From assembly GCA_018400515.1 (NCBI GenBank), contig JAGYMR010000054.1, forward strand, positions 1-13,446: a stretch of 13,446 nt of DNA. The letters are read 5' to 3'. Every line of letters starts with the position of its first letter. Position 1 is the first letter of the stretch. This DNA comes from Tangfeifania sp. GTDB taxonomy: Bacteria; Bacteroidota; Bacteroidia; Bacteroidales; Prolixibacteraceae. Under the pieces are notes generated by a model. That model saw only the letters and a program-made list of their open reading frames with translations. It ran no database searches and was not told the DNA's origin. Shown here one piece after another: positions 207 to 12,599 of this stretch. A program made the position numbers and the translations under genes.

Positions 207-2297
207 ATGCATTTTTTCAAAAACAGTTTCCGGCTGATTATCATTAGTCTGCTGGTTTCGGGATGCCAGTTTTGGGAGAAGGAACAGCTGCCCCGGCTCA
301 AGATCGGGGTAATGCTTCACTACTCCGGCGAATATGCTTCCAACTGGGATCACGGACTCGACTGGGCCGTTGAGAACATCAACAAAGCCGGTGGAGTGGC
401 GGGTTACAAGCTCGAACTGGTAAAAAAAGACCTGGCAAAAGCGGATTTGAAAACCGTCTCCGAAGCATTTATTGCCGATGAAAGCATAAAAGCGGTGATC
501 GGTCCCCTTACCTCATCAGAAGTATACGAAGCAGCCCCGCTTTTCATTTCCGGCAAAAAATTACTGATGGCTCCGGTAGCCACATCCGCGAACATTTCCA
601 GGGCTTTTGCCGGGTATGATTATTTCTGGCGTTTATCAGAACCCGACATCTCCCAGGTAAAAACCCTCATGCTTCTGGCCCAGTCGGGAGGAGCCCGGAG
701 AATTGGGCTCATTACCGAGGAGTCGCAGTACGGGGCCTCTTTCGAAGACTGGTTTGGTTATTTTGCCACCGAACTGGGTCTGGAGGTCGCCGGCATGCGG
801 GTGGTTGACCCGGGAGATCTGTCCGCGACAGAAGCCGCATGGAATGACCTGATCGAATCCCACCCCGATGCGGTGGTGGCAGCCATTAACTCCCCCGGAC
901 AGATCGCTGAACTGGTCAGGGCCTACCGGGCCAACGGACAGCAATCAAGGCTGCTGCTATCGGATGCGGCCGTTTTTCAGGCCCTGGTGGATGATCTGGG
1001 ACCGCTGGCCGAAAATCTGGAAGGGACAACCATCACCTCCGATCCTGCCTCCGGATTTGACATCTCTTATCAGGTAAAACACGGGGATTATCCCGGCCCC
1101 TTTATTGCCCATATGTACGATGCCGTTATGCTGCTGGGAATGGCCCTGGAAGCCTCCGGCGGAGAGGGCGGGGATATGCTGGTCAGCGCCCTGGAAAATG
1201 TGGTGACGGGAGATGCCGGAACATACGGATGGCATCGCGACGATGTTAGGCGGGCCCTCGAATCCATCAGGAACGGAGTTTTCCCCGACATCCGCGGGGC
1301 CAGCGGGCCCCTCGATTACGATGAACTGTATTTCACCGATGTTACCGCTACCACCTACGGCCACTGGCGGGTCGATGCCGGCCGCTTTGTAATTACCGAC
1401 TTTTACACCACCGACGGCGAGGGGCGCATCAGCTCCACCTCGGCCGCCTACCGGATCATTGCCGAAAAACGCCAGCAATTCTCCTCCAACGGAAGCTGGC
1501 CCTCATTGCCTCCGAAAGAGGGACTCTATGCCTTCCTGATGGCCACTTCCGAAGGATGGAGCAATTACCGCCACCAGGCCGATGTCCTGCATGCCTACCA
1601 ATTGCTGAAGTCCAACGGACTCAGCGATGACCGGATCGTCCTGGTTTTGGCCGATGACCTGGCACAATCCCCCTCCAACAACCTTCCCGGCGTGGTGCGC
1701 AATGTTCCGGAAGGGGAAAACCTGTATGAAGGGGTGAAGATCGATTACAAACTGAAAAATATGACCCCAGAAAGGATCAAAAAAATATTCACCGGACAGA
1801 TAACCAATGAAACACCGGTGGTTATCCCCTCTACCGCTTCCGATAATGTATTCATTTTTACCTCCGGGCACGGAACCCCTGAGGGAATGGTCTTTGAGGC
1901 CCGAAACGAGGCATCCCTGACGCCGGAATTCTGGCAATCGGTATTCAGTGCCATGGAGGAAAATCAAAAATACCGGCAGGTTTTCTGGGCCCTGGAGGCC
2001 TGCTACTCAGGCAAAATCGGCCAGGCCATATCCACCCCGGGCGTAATGCTGATGACAGGTGCCAATCCCTACGAAACATCCAAAGCCCACTTCTACGACC
2101 CCGAAATTAAGGCCTGGCTGGCGGATAAATTTGCCTACTCCATTAACAATACCATTTCAGAGGCACCCAACATCCCCTTCAATGAACTTTATGAAAGAAG
2201 TTACACATACGTCAACGGGTCCCATGTCTCCTTTTACAATTACCAGAATTTCGGCAACATTTATGAACTCACATTAAGCGATTTTGTCATCCCATGA
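207..2297 (+). CDS. Lipoprotein fusing a type-1 periplasmic ligand-binding domain to a legumain-like (C13) cysteine peptidase
   Basis: The 696-residue protein begins with a lipoprotein signal peptide: basic start, hydrophobic stretch, lipobox Val-Ser-Gly-Cys20. Residues about 30-410 resemble the LivJ/LivK branched-chain amino-acid receptor family (IGVMLHYSGEYA near the start, AVIGPLTSSE, PVATSANIS). Residues about 435-696 resemble the legumain catalytic domain along its whole length: GWSNYRHQADVLHAYQ with Asn453, Arg455 and His456; FTSGHGTPEG with catalytic His555; ALEACYSG with Glu597 and nucleophile Cys599; GANPYETSKAHFYD with Ser625; and LADKFAYSIN with Asp640. By legumain numbering these are the catalytic Asn/His/Cys and the S1-pocket residues for Asn. 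The protein ends where the legumain catalytic domain ends, so the C-terminal inhibitory prodomain is absent. The Asp before the catalytic His in legumain is Gly554 here. Inferred role: a membrane-anchored asparaginyl endopeptidase or transpeptidase whose activity may depend on ligand binding. Domain calls come from motif recognition, not a search. Confidence 0.88.
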   Translation: MHFFKNSFRLIIISLLVSGCQFWEKEQLPRLKIGVMLHYSGEYASNWDHGLDWAVENINKAGGVAGYKLELVKKDLAKADLKTVSEAFIADESIKAVIGPLTSSEVYEAAPLFISGKKLLMAPVATSANISRAFAGYDYFWRLSEPDISQVKTLMLLAQSGGARRIGLITEESQYGASFEDWFGYFATELGLEVAGMRVVDPGDLSATEAAWNDLIESHPDAVVAAINSPGQIAELVRAYRANGQQSRLLLSDAAVFQALVDDLGPLAENLEGTTITSDPASGFDISYQVKHGDYPGPFIAHMYDAVMLLGMALEASGGEGGDMLVSALENVVTGDAGTYGWHRDDVRRALESIRNGVFPDIRGASGPLDYDELYFTDVTATTYGHWRVDAGRFVITDFYTTDGEGRISSTSAAYRIIAEKRQQFSSNGSWPSLPPKEGLYAFLMATSEGWSNYRHQADVLHAYQLLKSNGLSDDRIVLVLADDLAQSPSNNLPGVVRNVPEGENLYEGVKIDYKLKNMTPERIKKIFTGQITNETPVVIPSTASDNVFIFTSGHGTPEGMVFEARNEASLTPEFWQSVFSAMEENQKYRQVFWALEACYSGKIGQAISTPGVMLMTGANPYETSKAHFYDPEIKAWLADKFAYSINNTISEAPNIPFNELYERSYTYVNGSHVSFYNYQNFGNIYELTLSDFVIP

Positions 2298-3301
2298 AAC
2301 AATTCATATACATCACCGGGCTGTTTCTTTTTTTTCTGTCCGGCTCCTGCCAGAAGGAGGAGTCCCTGATTTTTTCCCCCGATTTTGAGGTGTTTGTTTT
2401 ACTTCCGGCGGAAGGCCTGGGCGACCGGAGTTTTGCCGATGTTGTCTACGAAGGGGTGGAGGCAGCGGCCCTGGACTACAACTTCAAAGTGAACTATATC
2501 ATCCCGGAAACCTTTGAAAAAGGGGAAACATGGATTGAACAGATTCCTTCCCTCGGGAAAAGTGAAACGGAGCCCCACCTGATCTTCATTGCCGGGAACC
2601 AATATACGGAGGCGGTCAATAAGCTGAAAAACGTCCGGATGGAAAACAAGATCGTTTTGCTGGCGGGCATTGGAGAGGAGGCCGGACACCTGGCTTCACT
2701 GGTCTACCATACGTATGCCCCCTCCTACATCGGGGGGTATGTTTCGGCCCGGCTGGTAAATCAATGCAGAGCAACGGTTATCGAGGGGTTTGATGCACCT
2801 TTTCTGAAAGAGTACAGTGCCGGCTTTAAAGCAGGGGTGCGGGCAGCAGGGGGAACAGTCAACCCGGTACATTTTGTCAGTACCGGATTCAGCGGGTTTG
2901 AAATGCCCGATTCGGCCTATGCCCTGACCGAACGCCTGCTTCCGGCCAACGACCTGATTTTTGCTTTAGCGGCGGGCTCCAACTTCGGGATCATCAATGC
3001 GGCCCGTGATTTCCCCGGCCAGCGCTACGTGATTGGGGTTGATTCCGATCAAAGCTGGATGGGCCTTAAGGTGGTAACCGGCTCCGTGATCAAACTTTTC
3101 GAAGATGATATCCTGGAAATCATTGGCCGGTTTTCAGAAGGCCGTTTTGTTTCCGGGAATTTTTATCGCACATTTGAAGAGGGCAAAACCGCTTTCCTGA
3201 TCAATGAAGTGGTCCTGGACAATGCTGAAATTCCGGAATCCCTGGTTGAAACAGCAATCAGAAAAGAGCAACAGTACATCAATGGGCTTTCTGAAAAATA
3301 A
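2294..3301 (+). CDS. BMP/PnrA-family substrate-binding lipoprotein
   Basis: The 335-residue protein has a signal peptide ending at Cys19 followed by Gln-Lys-Glu-Glu, which fits the Bacteroidota lipoprotein export signal (Cys-X-Lys-acidic-acidic) and suggests surface exposure. The mature part resembles the basic membrane protein/PnrA family, whose known members bind nucleosides or related ligands. Visible landmarks are VLLPAEGLGDRSFADVVYEG near the N-terminus, a YIGGYVSARL segment, an FKAGVRAAGG segment, and YVIGVDSDQSW followed by a lysine-rich helix (GLKVVTGSVIKLFEDD). The length is normal for the family. The ATG overlaps the upstream stop by 4 bases (ATGA), so translation is probably coupled to the legumain-fusion gene. 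No permease or ATPase gene follows, so a transport role is unsupported; a ligand-sensing partner of the peptidase is my inference. Confidence 0.8.
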   Translation: MKQFIYITGLFLFFLSGSCQKEESLIFSPDFEVFVLLPAEGLGDRSFADVVYEGVEAAALDYNFKVNYIIPETFEKGETWIEQIPSLGKSETEPHLIFIAGNQYTEAVNKLKNVRMENKIVLLAGIGEEAGHLASLVYHTYAPSYIGGYVSARLVNQCRATVIEGFDAPFLKEYSAGFKAGVRAAGGTVNPVHFVSTGFSGFEMPDSAYALTERLLPANDLIFALAAGSNFGIINAARDFPGQRYVIGVDSDQSWMGLKVVTGSVIKLFEDDILEIIGRFSEGRFVSGNFYRTFEEGKTAFLINEVVLDNAEIPESLVETAIRKEQQYINGLSEK

Positions 3302-3403: not shown

Positions 3404-4213
3404 ATGCAACAAAAAAGGCACCTGAAAATAATGCATGGATCTGTTTTAGCCCTCCTCCTTTTCTTCATCCCTTTTGCCGGATGTCAGGAAAAAGGACAAG
3501 TCCCGGAAAGGGAGGATTCCATCGTACAGGTTTCCACCATCGATGCCCTGCTCAACGGAGTATACGACGGGATCATAACATTGGAAGAGCTCCGGGAATG
3601 GGGAAATTTTGGCATTGGCACATTTCACGCCCTTGATGGGGAAATGGTCCTGCTGAACGGCACCTTTTACCAGGTGAAGGCCGATGGGAAAATTTACCGC
3701 CCTTCCGGAAAAATGAAAACACCTTTTGCTGCCGTAACCCGTTTCACTCCTGAAAAATCGGAGCGCCTGGCAATCCGGAATTATCCGCAGCTCCAAGCGG
3801 TCCTCGACAGCCTGATAGCCAGTCCCAACCTGTTTTACGCCATCAGGTTCTCGGGGACCTTCCGGTCGGTTACAACCCGGAGTGTTCCGGCACAACAAAA
3901 GCCCTACCTGCCCTTAACGGAAATAACCGCGGATCAGCCGGAGTTTTCCGCCACCGGAATCAGCGGTACACTGGCCGGATTTTATTGCCCGCCCTATGTG
4001 AAGGGCATCAATGTCCCCGGTTACCACCTCCACTTTTTATCAGATGACAAAAAATTTGGCGGCCATCTGCTGGGGTTTAAAATGGGAAAGGGCCGTGTGC
4101 AGCTGGATCAGGTCAGCCATTTCAGAATGAAACTTCCCGAAAAGGGCGATTTTCTGCACTCCGATCTCCGGAAAGACAGGAGCAGTGAATTAAAAGAAGT
4201 GGAAGGTGAATAG
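3404..4213 (+). CDS. budA: Alpha-acetolactate decarboxylase, lipoprotein form
   Basis: The 269-residue protein decarboxylates alpha-acetolactate to acetoin, a step of the butanediol pathway and a way to drain acetolactate away from valine/leucine synthesis. Family landmarks are STIDALLNGVYDG, LREWGNFGIGTFHALDGEM, YRPSGKMKTPFAAVT and NVPGYHLHFLSDDKKFGGH. The zinc ligands His208, His210 and His221 show the same spacing as His194/196/207 of the Brevibacillus enzyme. Glu80 (DGEM) and Arg159 (TRSVP) match its active-site Glu65 and Arg145. The N-terminus is hydrophobic with lipobox Phe-Ala-Gly-Cys27 (PFAGC), so the mature enzyme should be membrane-anchored outside the cytoplasm. Met10 is an alternative start that still keeps the signal peptide. 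It lies 102 bases after the BMP gene, possibly in the same transcript. The usual partner, acetolactate synthase, is not in the window. Confidence 0.9.
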   Translation: MQQKRHLKIMHGSVLALLLFFIPFAGCQEKGQVPEREDSIVQVSTIDALLNGVYDGIITLEELREWGNFGIGTFHALDGEMVLLNGTFYQVKADGKIYRPSGKMKTPFAAVTRFTPEKSERLAIRNYPQLQAVLDSLIASPNLFYAIRFSGTFRSVTTRSVPAQQKPYLPLTEITADQPEFSATGISGTLAGFYCPPYVKGINVPGYHLHFLSDDKKFGGHLLGFKMGKGRVQLDQVSHFRMKLPEKGDFLHSDLRKDRSSELKEVEGE

Positions 4214-4280: not shown

Positions 4281-4757
4281 ATGACGGAAAAAGACAAAGT
4301 TTTTATGCAACGCGCCATCGAACTGGCCGGGAAGGGGATGGAAAACGGATTTGGCGGTCCTTTTGGAGCGGTGGTGGTCAAAGACGGAGCGATTATCGGC
4401 GAGGGGTACAACCGCGTCACGGCGACAAATGATCCGACCGCCCATGCCGAAATGATGGCCATCAGGGAAGCCTGCCGGCACCTTAATTCATTCCAGCTGG
4501 AAGGCTGCACCATCTATACCTCCTGCGAACCATGCCCGATGTGCATGGGTGCAATCTACTGGGCCCGTCCCGAAAAGGTTTATTACGCCTGCACAAGCAA
4601 GGATGCTGCAGCCATCGACTTCGACGATCATCACATTTATGAAGAGCTGCAAAAACCGGACGGCCAGCGCCGGATAAAATTTGAACGGATCATGCGCCCC
4701 GAAGCTTTAAAAGTACTCCGGCAGTGGGAGGAGAAAACAGATAAAAAATCCTACTGA
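4281..4757 (+). CDS. guaD: Guanine deaminase (cytidine-deaminase fold)
   Basis: The 158-residue enzyme hydrolyses guanine to xanthine and ammonia in purine salvage and catabolism; it is cytosolic. The zinc site is plain: THAEMMA-type motif with His55 and the proton-shuttling Glu57 (AHAEMMAI), and SCEPCPMCMGAIYWARP with Cys85 and Cys88. Length, the ARPEKVYYA segment and the FDDHHIYEEL segment near the C-terminus match Bacillus subtilis GuaD (about 156 residues) much better than tRNA adenosine deaminase TadA. The C-terminus ends at IRQW-like VLRQWEEKTDKKSY, as expected for a complete protein. It lies 67 bases after the decarboxylase gene and could share its transcript, but no functional link is evident. 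A TATTTTTG at 4218-4225 resembles a Bacteroidota -7 box without a matching -33. Confidence 0.9.
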   Translation: MTEKDKVFMQRAIELAGKGMENGFGGPFGAVVVKDGAIIGEGYNRVTATNDPTAHAEMMAIREACRHLNSFQLEGCTIYTSCEPCPMCMGAIYWARPEKVYYACTSKDAAAIDFDDHHIYEELQKPDGQRRIKFERIMRPEALKVLRQWEEKTDKKSY

Positions 4758-4824
4758 AAACCCATATATTTTCTTCCCCATTCGGTTGATCACTGGCTGT
4801 AATTCCTGGTTTCTCATCATCACA

Positions 4825-5115
4825 TCAGCCTACTAAAAGCTTCTCCTTTCCCTCACTGATCAATTTCAGGACCAGTTCGCCAAACAGGGTATTGGCCCAG
4901 GCAAACCACGATCGCGTAAAGTTGGCGGGATCATCTTTATGAAAAGTTTCCAAAGAATCAATCTCCCACTTGCGTTCATGCAACCCCGGTTTCATCTCGG
5001 TATTATCGCTCATCCAGTGTACCTCTTCCTCCGTGGTTTTATTGAAAGCATTGGCATACCGGTCGAGCAATACGCACTGTGTTTGCCGGTGGACAACACC
5101 GGCCAGCAGTTTTTT
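4825..5115 (-). pseudogene. Remnant of a GH125 exo-alpha-1,6-mannosidase with internal deletion
   Basis: Reading the minus strand from 5115 gives KKLLAGVVHRQTQCVLLDRY and then ANAFNK, a typical stretch from the front half of GH125 enzymes. HERKWEIDSL follows, where intact enzymes continue with CYPIRLAY. Here it jumps directly (near 4951/4950) to ETFHKDDPANFTRSWFAWAN, TLFGELVLKLISEGKE and a stop, which is the GH125 C-terminus. The N-terminal part before LLAGV and several hundred central residues, including most of the catalytic barrel, are therefore missing. The piece has no start codon of its own: TAG at 5118-5116 is directly upstream in the same frame, and TTG at 5070 is the only internal candidate. 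It should be inactive. The family call is from memory of conserved motifs. Confidence 0.75.
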
Positions 5116-5343
5116 CTATTCTGTAAAAATTGTTATTTCTTTTCCTTTTTGCAGTGAACCATGAGATACAAAATATCCGTCAACGGTTCCTCCGTCAATT
5201 GCTATCCTGCTGATTTTCCGCCCATGGTTTTTCCTGGAAATCGTCACTTTTGACGCTTTGGCCAGCAAGGCCACGGCATAATCATCGTAGGCATATTCCA
5301 ACGTTTTTGTAACGGCTGCCTTCGCCTTTGTTTCCACATGCGG
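5116..5343 (-). pseudogene. Remnant of a GH92 alpha-mannosidase with internal deletion
   Basis: The open frame runs from 5514 to the TAG at 5118-5116, but GH92-like sequence is recognisable only from about 5343. KAAVTKTLEYAYDDYAVALL is the conserved TLEYAYDDW motif region of GH92 enzymes. After LAKA the sequence passes at about 5253 straight into KVTISRKNHGRKISRIAIDG, GTVDGYFVSHG and LQKGKEITI, which resembles the extreme C-terminal beta-sandwich (xTIxxKNxSxxNxYIxxxxLNG, then HxDIxxGGxLxF). The several hundred residues normally between them, including later catalytic motifs, are gone. The stop codon is followed at once by the GH125 remnant in the same frame. The upstream residues (about 5344-5514) resemble nothing I recognise and overlap the start of the plus-strand MBL gene. 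Confidence 0.65.
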
Positions 5344-5501
5344 TTTTTCAAAAAATTTCGGGCGAAAATTGCAAACTTTTTCGGTAAATTCGTCGCTTTG
5401 AAAAAGATTCATTTTCTGTGCTAAAAAAGTCTCAATCAATTTTTTCAGAAAATCCATATGGGAAAAACCAAAAAACCACCGCCTCTCTTTTGATAAACGA
5501 T

Positions 5502-6147: not shown

Positions 6148-6942
6148 TTAACTGTCTGTCCGTTCAAATGAATCGGTTGCCCAATCCAGCCTGAAATGCA
6201 TTTCTCCGGGATAACCCTCCCGTGGAATATCAATACTGAATGTTTTGTAGGCAAACCTGCTAAGTCCGAGCCAGCTGTCTTCATACAAAACAAAATCGAT
6301 CTCCAGGTCATTGTACTGCGTCCCTAAAACCGTTTGCCACGGGGGTTCAAATTGAAAGGTATTTTCAAAGCCATCCGCTTTATTGACAGTCAGCACAGAA
6401 ATATAGTCGGCCGGCAGATACAGCCAACTCTCCAGGCGCAACACCTGCACTTTATATTCAGCTGCCTCAGGGACATTTTCATAATCAATCCGGATGGTGA
6501 ATCCCTCCCCGGAATTTTCGGCCTGCGGCTCCGGAGCTGAAAAGTCAAGATTGAAAGATCCTGAATTTTCAGTTACCTCAAAATAAGGAGAAGATGTTTC
6601 GGCCGCCACGTCGAAGGAAACGTGCTGTCGTGTGGTATCCACCGGCATAATGGCGTAACTGCCTGGCAACAACCCATCAAACCGGTACTGACCGTTAGCA
6701 TCGGTAAAAACCGAATCCAGGGTAACCTCATCCCGCATGATATCCGAAACAGACTTATCCTGTGCATCCAAAAGCAAAACCTGAATACCCTCCAGCGGGG
6801 TGGTGATCGAAGGGGTATTCACATTGTGTGAAGTAATGGTTCCCACCACTGTCGACGGACCGGTTTCCTCTTTTTGACAGGAAGAAAGCAGCGCTCCTCC
6901 AATAATAATTCCAAATAAAAAAATCTGACCTAATCGTACCAT
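6148..6942 (-). CDS. Lipoprotein with carboxypeptidase-regulatory-like domain, paralogue of its upstream neighbour
   Basis: The start is taken at 6942 (264 residues) because it gives a clean lipoprotein signal peptide: MVRLGQIFLF..., lipobox Leu-Ser-Ser-Cys22. The upstream ATG at 6996 would put 18 polar residues before it. Cys22 is followed by Gln-Lys-Glu-Glu, fitting the Bacteroidota export signal for surface lipoproteins. The region TLDSVFTDANGQYRFDGLLPGSYAIMPVDT is typical of a prealbumin-like/carboxypeptidase-regulatory beta-sandwich. A second beta-rich half with YENVPEAAEYKVQV follows. The same order of motifs (SIFTDGLGRFSFSGLPNGHY, PVDT, ENSGE, NVPEAGEY) is found in the neighbouring gene at 7085-7894, so the two are diverged duplicates. 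The gap between them is 142 bases. No enzymatic motif is visible; a binding or structural surface role is an inference. Confidence 0.75.
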   Translation of the reverse strand: MVRLGQIFLFGIIIGGALLSSCQKEETGPSTVVGTITSHNVNTPSITTPLEGIQVLLLDAQDKSVSDIMRDEVTLDSVFTDANGQYRFDGLLPGSYAIMPVDTTRQHVSFDVAAETSSPYFEVTENSGSFNLDFSAPEPQAENSGEGFTIRIDYENVPEAAEYKVQVLRLESWLYLPADYISVLTVNKADGFENTFQFEPPWQTVLGTQYNDLEIDFVLYEDSWLGLSRFAYKTFSIDIPREGYPGEMHFRLDWATDSFERTDS

Positions 6943-7084
6943 TTCAAAATGTTTTATTTTTCCGTTTGAATCGTTAATGCTTAATAATTTCTTCATTGAT
7001 TTTCGTAGAGCTTTTTTAAAAAAAGGTTTTTTTGAATCAAATATTTCACATCGCTTTTATTTTCCTCAGAATCGAGAGATACCC

Positions 7085-7894
7085 TTAATTTTCCAATCCT
7101 AATGCGGTACCCGTCTCCCAATCCAACTCCAAAACATATTCGCTTTCGTAGTTATCCAGGGGAACCGAAACCGAAACAACCTCTTCCTGTATTTCGGTAT
7201 AGCCTTTAAAAATCCCCAGCAACCAAACGGGATTCTGGGCCCGGAATAGTATCTTCAGGTTGTTGGTTTGCTTTTCATACCAATTTTCATACGGAGCCGG
7301 AAGTTGAAACGTACTGGTGGTTAATTCACCGGCTGTGTATGTATCACAATTACTGTAAGCTTTGCCAAATAAAAAGCGGATCTCTTCCCGTTGGGCATAG
7401 ACAAAGTATTCCCCGGCTTCAGGAACATTTACATGCTGCACTTTCACGGTATAAGCAACCTCCCCGGAATTCTCAGGAACCGGCATATAGGCAATGTAAT
7501 TCAACTGAATTCGTTTTTGGGCGTCACTTACCACGGCTTCATGGGAAGAAGTACCCTCCGCCAGATCAAAGGCATATGCTTGGGCCGTATCCACCGGTAA
7601 TAAGGCATAATGGCCATTAGGCAAGCCGGAAAAAGAAAACCTCCCCAAGCCATCTGTAAAAATGGAATCGATGACCATCGAAGTTTCAACCTTCAATCCC
7701 TGCGATGCATCGGCAAGGAATATCAGTATGCCTTCTGCAGGCATGGCGGTACTGGAAAAATTGTCCCCGGTTATTTGTACCTTCCCTTCAATTGTGCCCG
7801 ACAACGGAAGGTCATTTTGAGTACAGCCGGTAAAAACAAAAACGACCAGGAATGCAATCAGTGATACTGATGGAGGAATTCTCTTTGGTTTCAT
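7085..7894 (-). CDS. Lipoprotein with carboxypeptidase-regulatory-like domain, first gene of a paralogous pair
   Basis: The 269-residue protein has a signal peptide with lipobox Phe-Thr-Gly-Cys24. Residues about 35-130 form a likely prealbumin-like domain (GTIEGKVQI at its start, DSIFTDGLGRFSFSGLPNGH, then YALLPVDTAQAY). Residues about 150-265 form a second beta-rich region beginning PENSGEVAYTVKVQHVNVPE and ending in a Leu-Asp-Trp-Glu strand; the paralogue ends in a similar Leu-Asp-Trp. The mature N-terminus (CTQNDLP) lacks the Lys-acidic-acidic export signal of the paralogue, so the two may face different sides of the outer membrane. It is the promoter-proximal gene downstream of the TPR-AraC regulator and is preceded by the phased 12-mer repeats at 8018-8090. 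Function unknown. Confidence 0.75.
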   Translation of the reverse strand: MKPKRIPPSVSLIAFLVVFVFTGCTQNDLPLSGTIEGKVQITGDNFSSTAMPAEGILIFLADASQGLKVETSMVIDSIFTDGLGRFSFSGLPNGHYALLPVDTAQAYAFDLAEGTSSHEAVVSDAQKRIQLNYIAYMPVPENSGEVAYTVKVQHVNVPEAGEYFVYAQREEIRFLFGKAYSNCDTYTAGELTTSTFQLPAPYENWYEKQTNNLKILFRAQNPVWLLGIFKGYTEIQEEVVSVSVPLDNYESEYVLELDWETGTALGLEN

Positions 7895-8220
7895 GTCTTT
7901 TTTTATTTATCTACCTTTCTTTGCCTCCGGTGCTGTCAAACGGCCGGGAAGCAACAACCTCAAAAAGTGTCCAAAATCCCAGAAATTGTTACAAGGGCAA
8001 ATTTCCGGTTTTTGGGATTCAGCTGACAGAAAAGGGTGTTCAGTTAACAGAGAACATTGTCCGGCTGGCAGAATTTTGTTCAGCTAACAGGATATTCAAA
8101 AACGAATCATTGATTTTTCCCGGGGGATTCCGCAACTCAACGAAAAAAAACGGCAGACCAGTTTATGCAAAGAAATTAAGCTGCGTGTTCATTCTCTTTT
8201 GTCGGGCAAATGAAGGGGGT
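7895..8220. other. 326-bp intergenic region between regulator and lipoprotein pair
   Basis: This gap separates the stop of the TPR-AraC gene from the start of the first lipoprotein gene on the same strand. Its centre holds the phased 12-mers listed separately. TTTGACAG (minus strand, around 7936-7943) and TAGATAAAT (around 7908-7916) could be promoter elements, but their spacing fits neither the Bacteroidota nor the sigma-70 consensus well. A plus-strand open frame across the gap (from 7852) has no family likeness. No RNA gene or clear GC-rich terminator is seen. Confidence 0.6.
8018..8090. promoter_or_regulatory. Four phased 12-mer direct repeats, candidate AraC-type operator
   Basis: On the plus strand the copies are TTCAGCTGACAG (8018-8029), TTCAGTTAACAG (8039-8050), the degenerate TCCGGCTGGCAG (8060-8071) and TTCAGCTAACAG (8079-8090). 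Start-to-start distances are 21, 21 and 19 bases, about two helical turns, so all copies face the same side of the DNA. AraC-family proteins typically bind direct half-sites at such spacing. The array lies 124-196 bases upstream of the lipoprotein gene starting at 7894 and just beyond the AraC-type gene ending at 8221, so it is a plausible target of that regulator. Confidence 0.55.
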
Positions 8221-9948
8221 TCAGATTCCCACTCCCCCTGAAGTGTAATGCCCCCCGGATTCTTCCCGGGCCATTTTCCTGAACTGGCCGGGGGTGAGGC
8301 CGGTCATTCTTTTAAAGGCAGCGGTAAAACTGGTACGGGACTTAAAACCAACTTTGTACATAATCTGCTCCAGCGAATATTGCCGGAACCTGTCCTCCTG
8401 CATCAAACGTTTGGCGTGATTAATCCGGAAACCGTTGATGTATTGGTAAAAATTGGTTCCACTTCCCTGGTTGATGGCCCTTGAAACATATTTTTCATTG
8501 GTGTTCAGTTTTTCAGCCAGAAGGGCAATGCTCAGTTCAAATTGGGTATACAGCGCTTCCTCCTCCAGCAGTTGGCTGATCTTTTCAAAAAGGAGGTCCA
8601 GGGAATCTTTTTCAGCCGGATTCACAACAGGGGCCTTTTCCTGCTCCTGCAATCCAAAACCTGCCCGGTTGGAGGCAACATTCAAATGGTAAAGGTCTTT
8701 CAGCTTTTTCATCCGGAACCGGAAAAAAAAGAGGATTCCTCCGGAAACAAAACCAACGAGCAGAATGCCCAGGATCAGGATAAAATTCCGGGATTCCTGT
8801 TTTTCGATGCGTAACTGCTGGATTTTTATCAGTTGCTCCTTGTTCCTGAGGTCATGCATAAAGGACAGCTCTTCAAAAGTCTCCATTCTTGCCCGCGTTT
8901 GGTGGATATTGATGGCTTTGGTAAAACGGGCGAGGGTCCTTTCCATTTTCTCCGTTTCCCCGGTTCGGGCATACAGTTTCAGTAATTCGGTATAGTAGGT
9001 ATCCTCCATGGAGTGGATGCCGTTCTTCCTTATAAGCTCCAGCCCGTCAAGCAATGCTTTCTCGGCCTGTCCGGCATTAATATTCCCCGATTTTATCGTT
9101 GCCAGCCAGATCCGCAGGACATTCTCCGAGTTGAAGATCTCATGCCGTTCGGCTACGGTGAGCGCCTTTCGAAACCATCTACTTACACGGGGCGTATCCT
9201 TTTCCAGCTGATAAATTTTTCCCATGTTGAAATAGACTTCAATAAGGCCCCCGGGACTGCCGGCAGCGGAAAAGCAACTTTCCGCTTTTGTCCGCCATTT
9301 GCTGACCGGTTCAGGGACAAAGGTATCCCGGACGTGGTATTCATAAAGCATGAGGTTCTGATAAATTAACCCCAGGGACAAGGTGTCGGGGTGTTCCTCA
9401 AAATAGGTCCTTGCCGCATGGAGATACCGGCCCGCCTTTTCATAGTCCTGCTCCCAGAGATACACCAAACCGATATTGATGTTCGACTGGGCAATGCCGC
9501 GCTGGTTTTCCAGCTGCTTTTCGATTTCGAGCGACCGGAGGTAATAATCCAGCGCCTTGTCATATTCGGTCAACACATCGTAATTGACACCGATATTGTT
9601 ACACAATTTGGATTTAAACGAGGGATGCCTCCCGGCAAAACCGGAATGAAGGGCCCTTAAATAGGACTGGTTGGATGCTTTAAAATACCCCTTGTAATAG
9701 TAGACCATTCCCTTCAGGTAATAAGTATAGCTGATCAGGGAATCGTTGCCCGTTTGCAAAGCAAATTCATTGGCTTTTCCGGCATGATGCAATGTCAGGG
9801 AATCAGCGGCCGGCAATTTCTCCCGGACACGGTTGATATATACACGGGCAGAATCTTCCTGTACCGGCGCTGAAAAAACCTTCCCGGCAGTAAGAAGAAA
9901 AATAATCACCGGCCATTTTAAAAGGCAAATAAAAAAATTTAACACCAT
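8221..9948 (-). CDS. Membrane-spanning TPR/AraC-family transcriptional regulator
   Basis: The 575-residue protein has a cleavable-looking signal peptide (residues 1-27, Phe-Ser-Ala before Pro28). An extracytoplasmic helical part with TPR-like repeats follows; the clearest are residues about 105-190 (NNIGVNYDVLTEYDKALDYY, then SNINIGLVYLWEQDYEKAGR). There is a coiled-coil-like stretch (LRNKEQLIKIQQLRIEKQES), one membrane span at about 388-409, and a cytosolic C-terminal AraC-type double helix-turn-helix at about 470-563 (LAEKLNTNEKYVSRAIN, and GFKSRTSFTAAFKRMTGLTP). This architecture is common in Bacteroidota and suits sensing in the periplasm with direct output on DNA. The two lipoprotein genes downstream on the same strand are its likely targets. 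It is divergent from the PBP1A gene with a 230-bp gap. The ligand is unknown. Confidence 0.88.
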   Translation of the reverse strand: MVLNFFICLLKWPVIIFLLTAGKVFSAPVQEDSARVYINRVREKLPAADSLTLHHAGKANEFALQTGNDSLISYTYYLKGMVYYYKGYFKASNQSYLRALHSGFAGRHPSFKSKLCNNIGVNYDVLTEYDKALDYYLRSLEIEKQLENQRGIAQSNINIGLVYLWEQDYEKAGRYLHAARTYFEEHPDTLSLGLIYQNLMLYEYHVRDTFVPEPVSKWRTKAESCFSAAGSPGGLIEVYFNMGKIYQLEKDTPRVSRWFRKALTVAERHEIFNSENVLRIWLATIKSGNINAGQAEKALLDGLELIRKNGIHSMEDTYYTELLKLYARTGETEKMERTLARFTKAINIHQTRARMETFEELSFMHDLRNKEQLIKIQQLRIEKQESRNFILILGILLVGFVSGGILFFFRFRMKKLKDLYHLNVASNRAGFGLQEQEKAPVVNPAEKDSLDLLFEKISQLLEEEALYTQFELSIALLAEKLNTNEKYVSRAINQGSGTNFYQYINGFRINHAKRLMQEDRFRQYSLEQIMYKVGFKSRTSFTAAFKRMTGLTPGQFRKMAREESGGHYTSGGVGI

Positions 9949-9985
9949 AGGTTATCTGAATAAACCATTATTTGCCCCATCCGCA

Positions 9986-10000
9986 TTTCGGCGGCCGAAA
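9986..10000. repeat. Short perfect inverted repeat upstream of the TPR-AraC gene
   Basis: TTTCGGC and GCCGAAA flank a single G, 38 bases upstream of the regulator start. It could be an operator in the divergent region shared with the PBP1A gene, or chance. I see no clear -7/-33 promoter pair in the rest of 9949-10178. Confidence 0.35.
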
Positions 10001-10178
10001 AGAGGTATTCATCCGGAATAAAACAGCGTCGCAAAAAATCGGATAGGGTTCCAAATCATCCTGCCTGTAAAAATAGCAACAAACCCCAAAAATTTCAAAT
10101 CCTGTCAGCCCCTTTGCCCTTCAAAATTTTCCGAAAAGATTTTTTATCAGGGAATAACAGCGCAAAAAGAACCTTAAA

Positions 10179-12599
10179 ATGATTAATTTTGCAAAAAAGA
10201 ATTTCATGGCATCCCGGAATTCAAAAAACCGAAATACCCCAAAAAGAAAACCTGCAGCCCGGAAGAAAAAAACCGCGCGTAGCCCCCGGCGAAGAGTTTT
10301 TATATTTCTGCTGAAGGCATTTCTTGCCGGAGTGGTGCTTTTTTCCCTTTTTTTTATGGCGGTTTACCTTGGTTTTACCGGCCATGTGCCTTCTACCCAG
10401 CAGCTCCATAAAATAGTAAATCCCCAGGCTTCTGAAGTGTTTTCGGCAGACGGGAAGTTGCTGGGGCGCTACTATATTGAAAACCGGAGCAATGTGGATT
10501 TTGACGAAATTTCACCGAATGTGATCAATGCCCTGATAGCAACCGAAGACGCCCGGTTTTACGAACACCGCGGAATCGATGAGATGGCCCTTTTAAGGGT
10601 CCTGGTAAAGACCATTATCCTGGGCGATGAGAGCGCAGGCGGAGGGAGTACCCTCAGCCAGCAAATTGCCAAGAACCTCTTCCCCCGGAACGATTTTGGG
10701 ATTATTTCACTTCCTGTCAATAAATTGCGGGAATCCATCATCGCCTATCGCCTGGAGCGTATTTACACCAAAGAGGAGATCCTGACCCTTTACCTCAATA
10801 CCGTTCCCTTTGGCGAGAACATTTTCGGGATTGAAGTAGCAGCCGAACGGTTTTTCAGTAAAAAACCGGACGAACTCACGGTGAACGAAGCAGCTGTGCT
10901 GGTGGGAATGCTGAAAGGAAATACCCTCTACAACCCCCGGTTGCATCCGGAGAGATCAAAAAGCCGGCGAAACGTGGTCATCCAGCAAATGGTGAAAAAT
11001 GATTTCTTACCCGAAGAGGAGGGACGGAAATTCATGGAAAAGCCCCTGGAAATCCATTACCAGAAAATTTCTTACAATGAGGGACCGGCTCCCTACTTCC
11101 TGGAAATGCTGAAACCCGAACTGCTGGATTGGTGTTCAGACCATTTTAAAGAAAACGGGGAACCCTACAATCTGTATACCGACGGATTAAAGATCCGTAC
11201 CACCATCAATTATAACTTTCAGTATTTTGCCCGGCAGTCGGTAAAAGAATATATGAAAAACCTGCAACAGGTTTTTGACCGTCACTGGAAAAATGCCGTT
11301 CCCTGGAGAAGCGACCCGGAAATATTGCAGCGGGCCGTCGAACGAACCGACCGCTACCAAAAAATGGAACGCTCGGGCTATTCTGAAGCACAAATCGATA
11401 AAGCTTTCCAACAAAAAATCACCGCCTCCCTGTTTACATGGGAGGGCCTCAAAGAGGTGGAAACCACTCCGCTTGATTCGGTCAAACACTACCTCCGGTT
11501 GCTGAATGCCGGTTTTTTAGCTTTGGAACCGGCCACCGGTGCATTAAAAGCCTGGGTGGGAGGCATCGATTTTCGCTTTTTTAAGTACGACCACGTGCTT
11601 TCACAACGGCAAACCGGTTCCACGTTCAAACCCATTGTTTATCTTTCCGCCCTTGAAAACGGATTAAGCCCGTTTGAGTACTTCCCGGCAAAACAGCGGG
11701 TTTACGAGGACTACCAGGACTGGTCGCCCTCCAATGCCGGCGGTGATCACGAAGGATTTTACACCATGGAAGGAGCCCTTTCCCGCTCGGTCAATACGGT
11801 TACCGTGGATGTGTGCATGAAAACAGGACTGGAGAATGTCATCACAACCGCCCGGAAACTGGGGCTGAAAGCCGATCTCCCGGAGGTTCCCTCGCTGGCC
11901 CTGGGCGTGGCATCGATAAGCCTGAAAAACCTTCTTTCCGCTTACACCACCCTGCTCAATGAAGGCACGCGGACACCCCCCTGGTACCTCCGGTCCATTA
12001 CCACCAGCGAAAATGAGGTCCTCGATGAATTTGCACCTCCGGAATCAAAACCAACCACCCTTAAACCCGTAAACTGCCGGATCGTCCGACACATGATGGA
12101 AACAGCCGTAAACGAAGGCACCGGAACAAAAATCCGTTCGGTATACCACATTCCCGGCGACTTTGCAGGAAAAACCGGTACTACCCAGAACCAGTCCGAC
12201 GGATGGTTCGTGGGCCTGACCCCCCGGCTGGTGACCGGTTGCTGGGTGGGAGCCGAAGACCCCGGCATTCATTTCCGGACCATTACTTACGGACAGGGTT
12301 CCTACATGGCATTGCCCATCGTGGGAAAATTTTTCCATAAATTGTATCATGACCCCCGCTATTCGGATTTTAAAAACGCACGTTTCCCCCGTTTAAGCCG
12401 GGAATTGCTCGCCGACCTGGACATTCCGCCTTACAAAGAAATGTTCAAAATGGAACGAAAAGAGCACCTGCTCGACCAGCTTTTTGCGGGGAAAAGCAAA
12501 GAGGAGAAATTGCGGGAGAGGCAACAACCCGGAGAGGAAAAAGAAAAAAAAGGGTTATGGCAGTCCATAAAAAACCTTTTCAAAAAGGATAAGAAATAG
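10179..12599 (+). CDS. Bifunctional class A penicillin-binding protein, PBP1A type
   Basis: The 806-residue enzyme polymerises and cross-links peptidoglycan. It has a strongly basic cytosolic N-terminus (residues 1-39), one membrane span (about 40-66), and a GT51 transglycosylase domain (about 85-260) with TEDARFYEHRGID, catalytic Glu123 and GGGSTLSQQIAKNL. A penicillin-binding transpeptidase domain (about 460-730) follows, with nucleophile Ser481 in GSTFKP, Ser-Val-Asn at 537-539 and the Lys-Thr-Gly at 665-667 in GKTGTTQNQSDGWFVG. All catalytic motifs are intact. The C-terminus is a highly charged tail (KEEKLRERQQPGEEKEKKGL and on to KKDKK) that looks disordered or basic-amphipathic. An ATG at 10206 (MASRNSKN) is an equally plausible start; 10179 is the longest frame and is kept with reservation. 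It ends 4 bases before the end of the convergent gene. Confidence 0.93.
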   Translation: MINFAKKNFMASRNSKNRNTPKRKPAARKKKTARSPRRRVFIFLLKAFLAGVVLFSLFFMAVYLGFTGHVPSTQQLHKIVNPQASEVFSADGKLLGRYYIENRSNVDFDEISPNVINALIATEDARFYEHRGIDEMALLRVLVKTIILGDESAGGGSTLSQQIAKNLFPRNDFGIISLPVNKLRESIIAYRLERIYTKEEILTLYLNTVPFGENIFGIEVAAERFFSKKPDELTVNEAAVLVGMLKGNTLYNPRLHPERSKSRRNVVIQQMVKNDFLPEEEGRKFMEKPLEIHYQKISYNEGPAPYFLEMLKPELLDWCSDHFKENGEPYNLYTDGLKIRTTINYNFQYFARQSVKEYMKNLQQVFDRHWKNAVPWRSDPEILQRAVERTDRYQKMERSGYSEAQIDKAFQQKITASLFTWEGLKEVETTPLDSVKHYLRLLNAGFLALEPATGALKAWVGGIDFRFFKYDHVLSQRQTGSTFKPIVYLSALENGLSPFEYFPAKQRVYEDYQDWSPSNAGGDHEGFYTMEGALSRSVNTVTVDVCMKTGLENVITTARKLGLKADLPEVPSLALGVASISLKNLLSAYTTLLNEGTRTPPWYLRSITTSENEVLDEFAPPESKPTTLKPVNCRIVRHMMETAVNEGTGTKIRSVYHIPGDFAGKTGTTQNQSDGWFVGLTPRLVTGCWVGAEDPGIHFRTITYGQGSYMALPIVGKFFHKLYHDPRYSDFKNARFPRLSRELLADLDIPPYKEMFKMERKEHLLDQLFAGKSKEEKLRERQQPGEEKEKKGLWQSIKNLFKKDKK

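Follow-up and report, generated by a model that had tools for sequence, protein, structure and literature searches.

A LivJ-type receptor domain joined to a legumain-type peptidase in a bacterial lipoprotein, and its Bmp/PnrA-like partner

Receptor and peptidase domains of the fusion protein

The DNA analysed here is a stretch of 13,446 nucleotides from Tangfeifania sp. (GenBank assembly GCA_018400515.1, contig JAGYMR010000054.1), hereafter the window. It encodes a lipoprotein in which a substrate-binding protein (SBP) domain of the LivJ/LivK type is followed by a peptidase domain of family C13, the legumain (asparaginyl endopeptidase) family, and next to it a second lipoprotein of the PnrA/Bmp type (Table 1). 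A preliminary description, made from the sequence alone, had claimed a receptor fused to a complete legumain-type peptidase in one lipid-anchored chain. The fusion, the lipoprotein signal and the complete active site were all confirmed, and the domain search placed Peripla_BP_6-type and Peptidase_C13 domains in the expected halves. In Pfam, the protein scored 179.4 bits against PF01650 (curated cut-off: 22.8), and the receptor domain was recognized as a LivJ/LivK-type substrate-binding protein (PF13458) by both profile and fold. The receptor domain also matched ANF_receptor (PF01094, E = 1.6e-14). The prodomain PF20985 gave no match in the fusion protein up to E = 1, the chain ending with the catalytic domain, and the peptidase C11 family was absent from its Pfam matches up to the same value. 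The linker (residues 406–436) was not covered as a separate domain by the VIA-align fold matches.

Table 1. Features of the fusion gene and its partner in the window
Feature	Position	Strand	Basis
SBP-C13 fusion lipoprotein, 696 amino acids	207..2297	+	Open reading frame, Pfam, structure model, family search
Signal peptide with lipobox LVSGC and expected lipidated Cys20, residues 1–20	207..266	+	Read from sequence
LivJ/LivK-type receptor domain (Peripla_BP_6), residues ~31–405	297..1421	+	
Peptidase_C13 (legumain) domain, residues ~441–696; Asn453, His555, Cys599	1527..2294	+	
PnrA/Bmp-type lipoprotein, 335 amino acids, conserved partner	2294..3301	+	Pfam Bmp E 1.1e-23; fold matches; adjacency

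A search of 5.8 billion proteins (7996 candidates scored) yielded 152 homologues. Among the best 120 of these, query included, PF01650 and an SBP Pfam domain occurred together in 116, and identity to the fusion protein ranged from 31 to 81%. From the same 120, 57 proteins were picked for spread and aligned. Residues N453, Y454, R455, H456, H555, E597, C599 and S625 were identical in all 57, including four (R455, H456, E597 and S625) that we take, by comparison with legumain, to belong to the S1 pocket. The C13 domain is very probably an active peptidase. Position 20 was Cys in 52 of the aligned members. Self-cleavage of the linker at a conserved legumain-like site was considered and found unsupported, because no position from 398 to 441 carried Asn in more than 18 of the 57.

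The receptor pocket, located by alignment to Leu- and Leu/Ile/Val-binding proteins, was likewise conserved (S103 in 56/57, T or S126 in 55/57, D147 in 56/57, Y175 in 55/57 and D253 in 57/57). In the alignments these positions fall on Ser79, Thr102, Asp121, Tyr150 and Glu226 of the Leu/Ile/Val-binding protein; another contact of that protein, which we place at Tyr202, was not retained. The conserved amino-acid-type pocket agrees with the receptor domain of the preliminary description, and an amino-acid-type ligand is somewhat likely.

With the C13 half as the sole query, 39 proteins were retrieved, among them legumains as well as bacterial and metagenomic pieces. Identity to the C13 half was 33–36% for the six named animal records; five of the six carried the prodomain PF20985, which was present in many of the longer matches. 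Legumains are known as zymogens controlled by pH and by their prodomain. Compared with eukaryotic legumain, the fusion is a bacterial lipoprotein with an N-terminal LivJ-type receptor, no PF20985 match and a paired Bmp-like gene. The likeness of the C13 domain to the GPI8 transamidase is one of fold only.

The fusion is uncommon, its carriers forming a small minority of the genomes sampled. Carriers made up at least 3 of 247 genomes in the order of genome G001 and at least 7 of 393 in that of G002 (overlapping samples); both are lower bounds, because in the large searches just a few top candidates of each genome were scored. By family, the fusion occurred in 1/140 (G001), 3/12 (G002), 1/13 (G111) and 7/56 (G740) genomes, and in 4/18 of the family common to G774 and G706. 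The order and family counts include the seed genomes. None of 197 genomes in the class of G365 had it, in a search holding no positive control. Across the phylum, PF01650 matched in 17 of 296 genomes, in 16 over the cut-off; one match (G001) was the fusion and the others were weaker. A pattern search of viral contigs hit 35 stretches, none of which encoded a relative; plasmids gave no match at E = 1e-20. NCBI names the Tangfeifania, Draconibacterium, Thermophagus and Pseudomonadota records ‘C13 family peptidase’, and one Thermoplasmata archaeon record was among the homologues listed. Myxococcales records are also among the members from outside Bacteroidota. The interpretation given in the preliminary description was supported in part. 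The fusion is not unique to the window, and relatives already have a name. One fusion gene, at locus L070 of genome G968 (8404–10547, minus strand), lies in two overlapping frames split near the receptor–protease junction; at L065 and L066, its close copies each form one uninterrupted frame.

A Bmp/PnrA-like partner gene and a MACPF-linked clade

Twenty-one fusion loci were read (the window, L001, L002, L003 with L041, L038–L040, L050–L054, L065–L072 and L074). L003 and L041 were counted as one gene, which we infer to be split across two contigs of genome G003, and some loci are near-copies of each other (L039/L054; L065/L066/L070; L067/L068). In 20 of the 21, a gene for a Bmp/PnrA-like lipoprotein was adjacent to the fusion gene on the same strand, with only its first 69 codons on the contig in L001. 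Pfam called Bmp in 11 of the 15 partners scanned (best E = 8.8e-29); partners without a call were assigned by a profile based on six partners, with one round of iteration, which leaves the divergent ones less sure. The fusion gene came first in the window, L001, L002, L040 and L041, with a 4-base overlap (ATGA in the window). In the other 15 loci the Bmp gene came first, and overlaps there depend on the choice of start. Since the pairing was kept despite the changed gene order, we argue for a functional link between the two genes. Pairwise identities co-varied across 13 loci (SBP–C13 r = 0.87, Bmp–C13 0.74, Bmp–SBP 0.86; 0/5000 permutations each). There is a good probability that the Bmp-like protein belongs to the same complex or pathway as the fusion. 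The preliminary description was right about the fusion and its motifs, but had missed both this co-encoded lipoprotein and the MACPF link of one clade described below.

The structure model of the window partner (predicted local distance difference test score: 88.9) had its best matches in Lbp with guanosine, BmpD with adenosine, and PnrA, inosine-bound protein also being among the closest, and the sequence profile agreed; a nucleoside is a likely ligand. In these folds and in its Bmp domain the partner resembles the PnrA/Bmp nucleoside-binding lipoproteins, whereas the pairing of its gene with a protease gene sets it apart. A second fusion–Bmp copy in genome G1019 (L074, 2139–6088, minus strand) adjoins gldN and gldM (gliding/type IX secretion).

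In 5 of the 21 loci (L038, L050, L051, L069 and L071), lipoproteins with a MACPF domain (PF01823) were encoded directly upstream of the Bmp and fusion genes on the same strand. They were called by Pfam in L038, L050 and L051 and for one protein of L071, and by genome search in L069; in several, BACON-like regions scored near the cut-off. Of 18 carrier genomes, 5 had PF01823 hits, 13 in all. Eleven of these lay inside MACPF–Bmp–fusion operons; the remaining two were at the end of a contig of G1019 (L073), which would fit the same operon. In a tree built on 17 of the 21 loci plus 11 database proteins (28 rows), the five MACPF loci fell on one side of a single branch (support 99/98), and MACPF presence required one change, a value as low being reached in 0/500 shuffles. 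The pattern fits one gain kept over a deep divergence. The window fusion was placed elsewhere in the tree, away from the MACPF loci, and none of the window proteins scanned was a MACPF protein. With PADLOC, the fusion, the Bmp partner and two MACPF proteins were all without a match at E values up to 0.01. Further lipoprotein-like genes adjoin MACPF or Bmp–C13 genes at L073 (4210–11015, minus strand), L051 (3193–5139), L071 (5625–6875) and L072 (994–4352); none had a Pfam match over the cut-off, and their products are candidate substrates or pore partners.

A surface export signal consisting of acidic residues after the lipidated Cys has been published (PMC5080379). At least two acidic residues at +2 to +6 after the Cys were present in 12/18 fusion, 13/19 partner and 8/10 MACPF proteins, as raw counts without a background control. 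Only proteins with a lipobox recognized by a simple pattern were counted; the pattern picked out no lipobox in two fusion proteins, and one partner Cys looks miscalled. The window partner reads C-QKEES. Such signals point to a likely surface location of the system.

Proposed mechanism and alternatives

The domain architecture and the retained partner led us to hypothesize a two-gene envelope sensor–protease module, a reading that we consider about evenly poised. The fusion protein would be an active asparaginyl (Asn-P1) endopeptidase, lipid-anchored at the outer membrane, whose LivJ-type Venus-flytrap domain would bind an alpha-amino-acid-like ligand. Closure of this domain would alter the activity of the C13 domain or access to it, and the receptor would do the regulatory work done in eukaryotic legumain by the C-terminal prodomain. 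The Bmp/PnrA-type lipoprotein would add another Venus-flytrap sensor, whose ligand is probably a nucleoside, and would work with the fusion protein in one complex or pathway; protease activity would depend on it. Neighbouring lipoproteins would probably be the substrates and, in one clade, the MACPF pore-formers of the same operon. Control of an envelope protease by small molecules is a reasonable deduction, and probable, for the fusion protein; for ligand gating of the C13 activity in particular, the chances may be equal either way.

Several observations weigh against this module. Position D640, which we take to be the equivalent of human legumain D231 in the S1 pocket, was Asp in 34 and Asn in 23 of the 57 aligned members (Asp in the window protein), so that some members may not share the same specificity for Asn. 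Locus L053 lacks a Bmp gene and has a TonB-dependent receptor upstream. Pfam missed Bmp in 4 of the 15 partners scanned, and also in that of L074, unlike in known PnrA/Bmp lipoproteins, and riboflavin-binding RfuA and sugar-binding folds followed among the matches of the window partner. The correlated identities also follow from vertical inheritance. The window fusion protein reads C-QFWEK and does not match the published surface signal, so this copy could face the periplasm. Finally, 13 of the 18 carrier genomes had no PF01823 hit (genome completeness untold). MACPF as a general substrate was rejected, because it was not found in these 13 or in the vicinity of the window gene and is confined to one branch. 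Within its own clade, MACPF as the substrate is a possibility that we hold tentatively, at somewhat less than an even chance.

The strongest alternative is a constitutive envelope peptidase, in which the receptor domain would anchor or position the C13 domain or capture released amino acids without any switching, and the pair would scavenge peptides and nucleosides. Uptake is the role for which the SBP and Bmp families are mainly known, and amino-acid capture would also need the conserved receptor pocket. At L039, a DcuC-type carrier gene (E = 9.7e-102) adjoins Bmp, with an oligopeptide-type ATP-binding cassette (ABC) ATPase gene a few genes from Bmp, both on the opposite strand; these could suit uptake, a further point against the sensor–protease module. 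The receptor domain shares its fold and pocket residues with LivJ/LivK (and ANF_receptor-type sensor domains) and differs from them in being joined to a protease. Against scavenging, no ABC transporter domain was found in the eight window proteins scanned; at the other loci, where the scan covered some of the neighbours, L039 has the ATPase just named. The MACPF association in one clade is also ill-suited to a nutritional role, and we regard scavenging as unlikely. A transpeptidase or sorting enzyme, in which the C13 domain would act in the manner of GPI8 or plant peptide ligases, cutting at Asn and linking surface proteins to an acceptor, is improbable; nothing favours it beyond the shared fold, which cannot tell a protease from a ligase. 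A chance or decayed fusion, with domains accreted without linked function, would suit the rare and patchy distribution (at least 7 of 393 genomes of one order) and the split copy at L070, but is strongly disfavoured, indeed barely credible, given an architecture kept in 116 of the best 120 of 152 homologues down to about 31% identity, including Pseudomonadota and Thermoplasmata records, catalytic residues kept in 57/57 and a Bmp partner kept in 20/21 loci.

If the sensor–protease module is gated as proposed, it would provide an allosterically controlled asparaginyl endopeptidase with a small-molecule receptor in the place of the prodomain, which would interest biologists and might serve as a tool, and the retained Bmp-like partner suggests a two-input sensor. 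A more extended pathway can be envisaged at the cell surface, in which two Venus-flytrap sensors, one for an amino acid and one for a nucleoside (lysing cells release both), would jointly switch on the legumain-type protease, which would activate the same-operon MACPF protein in one clade and other lipoproteins elsewhere. We consider this pathway rather unlikely; if true, bacteria would have a ligand-gated counterpart of caspase–gasdermin and complement logic.

The closest precedents are surface C11 proteases (fragipain, DpnB), which are reported to activate Bacteroidales toxins including BcpT (PMC9308784) and the pore-forming CDCL proteins (PMC11169675). Like the fusion, they are lipoprotein cysteine proteases of the same phylum, and they are reported to cut after Arg or Lys; in contrast, the fusion belongs to C13, has an expected Asn-P1 specificity and a receptor domain, and shares an operon with MACPF in one clade. 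The MACPF lipoproteins adjoining the fusion in five loci resemble the BSAP antibacterial lipoproteins of Bacteroidales (PMC12853789). In that paper, the need of BSAP-1 for an external trigger such as proteolysis was left open, and the word ‘legumain’ does not occur in its text. The MACPF operons are a testable candidate for the switch of some Bacteroidales MACPF pore-formers. Each domain is already known; among the papers listed from the open-licence PMC literature, a weak basis for absence, none described a receptor–legumain fusion or a combined module with Bmp or MACPF.

Other genes in the window and at related loci

In the window, the Bmp gene is followed by an acetolactate decarboxylase gene (3404–4213, plus strand; PF03306, E = 2.7e-82; TIGR01252 over the cut-off). 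Its product carries a lipoprotein-like signal, to our knowledge an unusual location for this enzyme. Two small CarboxypepD_reg-like lipoproteins (Pfam below the cut-off) are encoded at 6148–6996 and 7085–7894, both on the minus strand. Related small lipoproteins flank the fusion–Bmp pair in L002 (598–1386 and 4528–5292); in L003 they precede the fusion (4645–5451 and 7200–7994).

Tetratricopeptide repeat-type regulators were encoded at or near several loci, namely L040 (3262–5756, minus strand), L067 (5318–7030), L066 (4976–6655) and the window (8221–9948, minus strand). They differ in kind (histidine kinase with LuxR-type regulator, LuxR-like, AraC); those of the window and L067 had no detectable similarity, and the regulator link remains a lead. 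The window also encodes a transglycosylase–transpeptidase penicillin-binding protein (10179–12599, plus strand; PF00912, E = 3.4e-54; PF00905, E = 9.2e-26), which is probably unrelated to the fusion.
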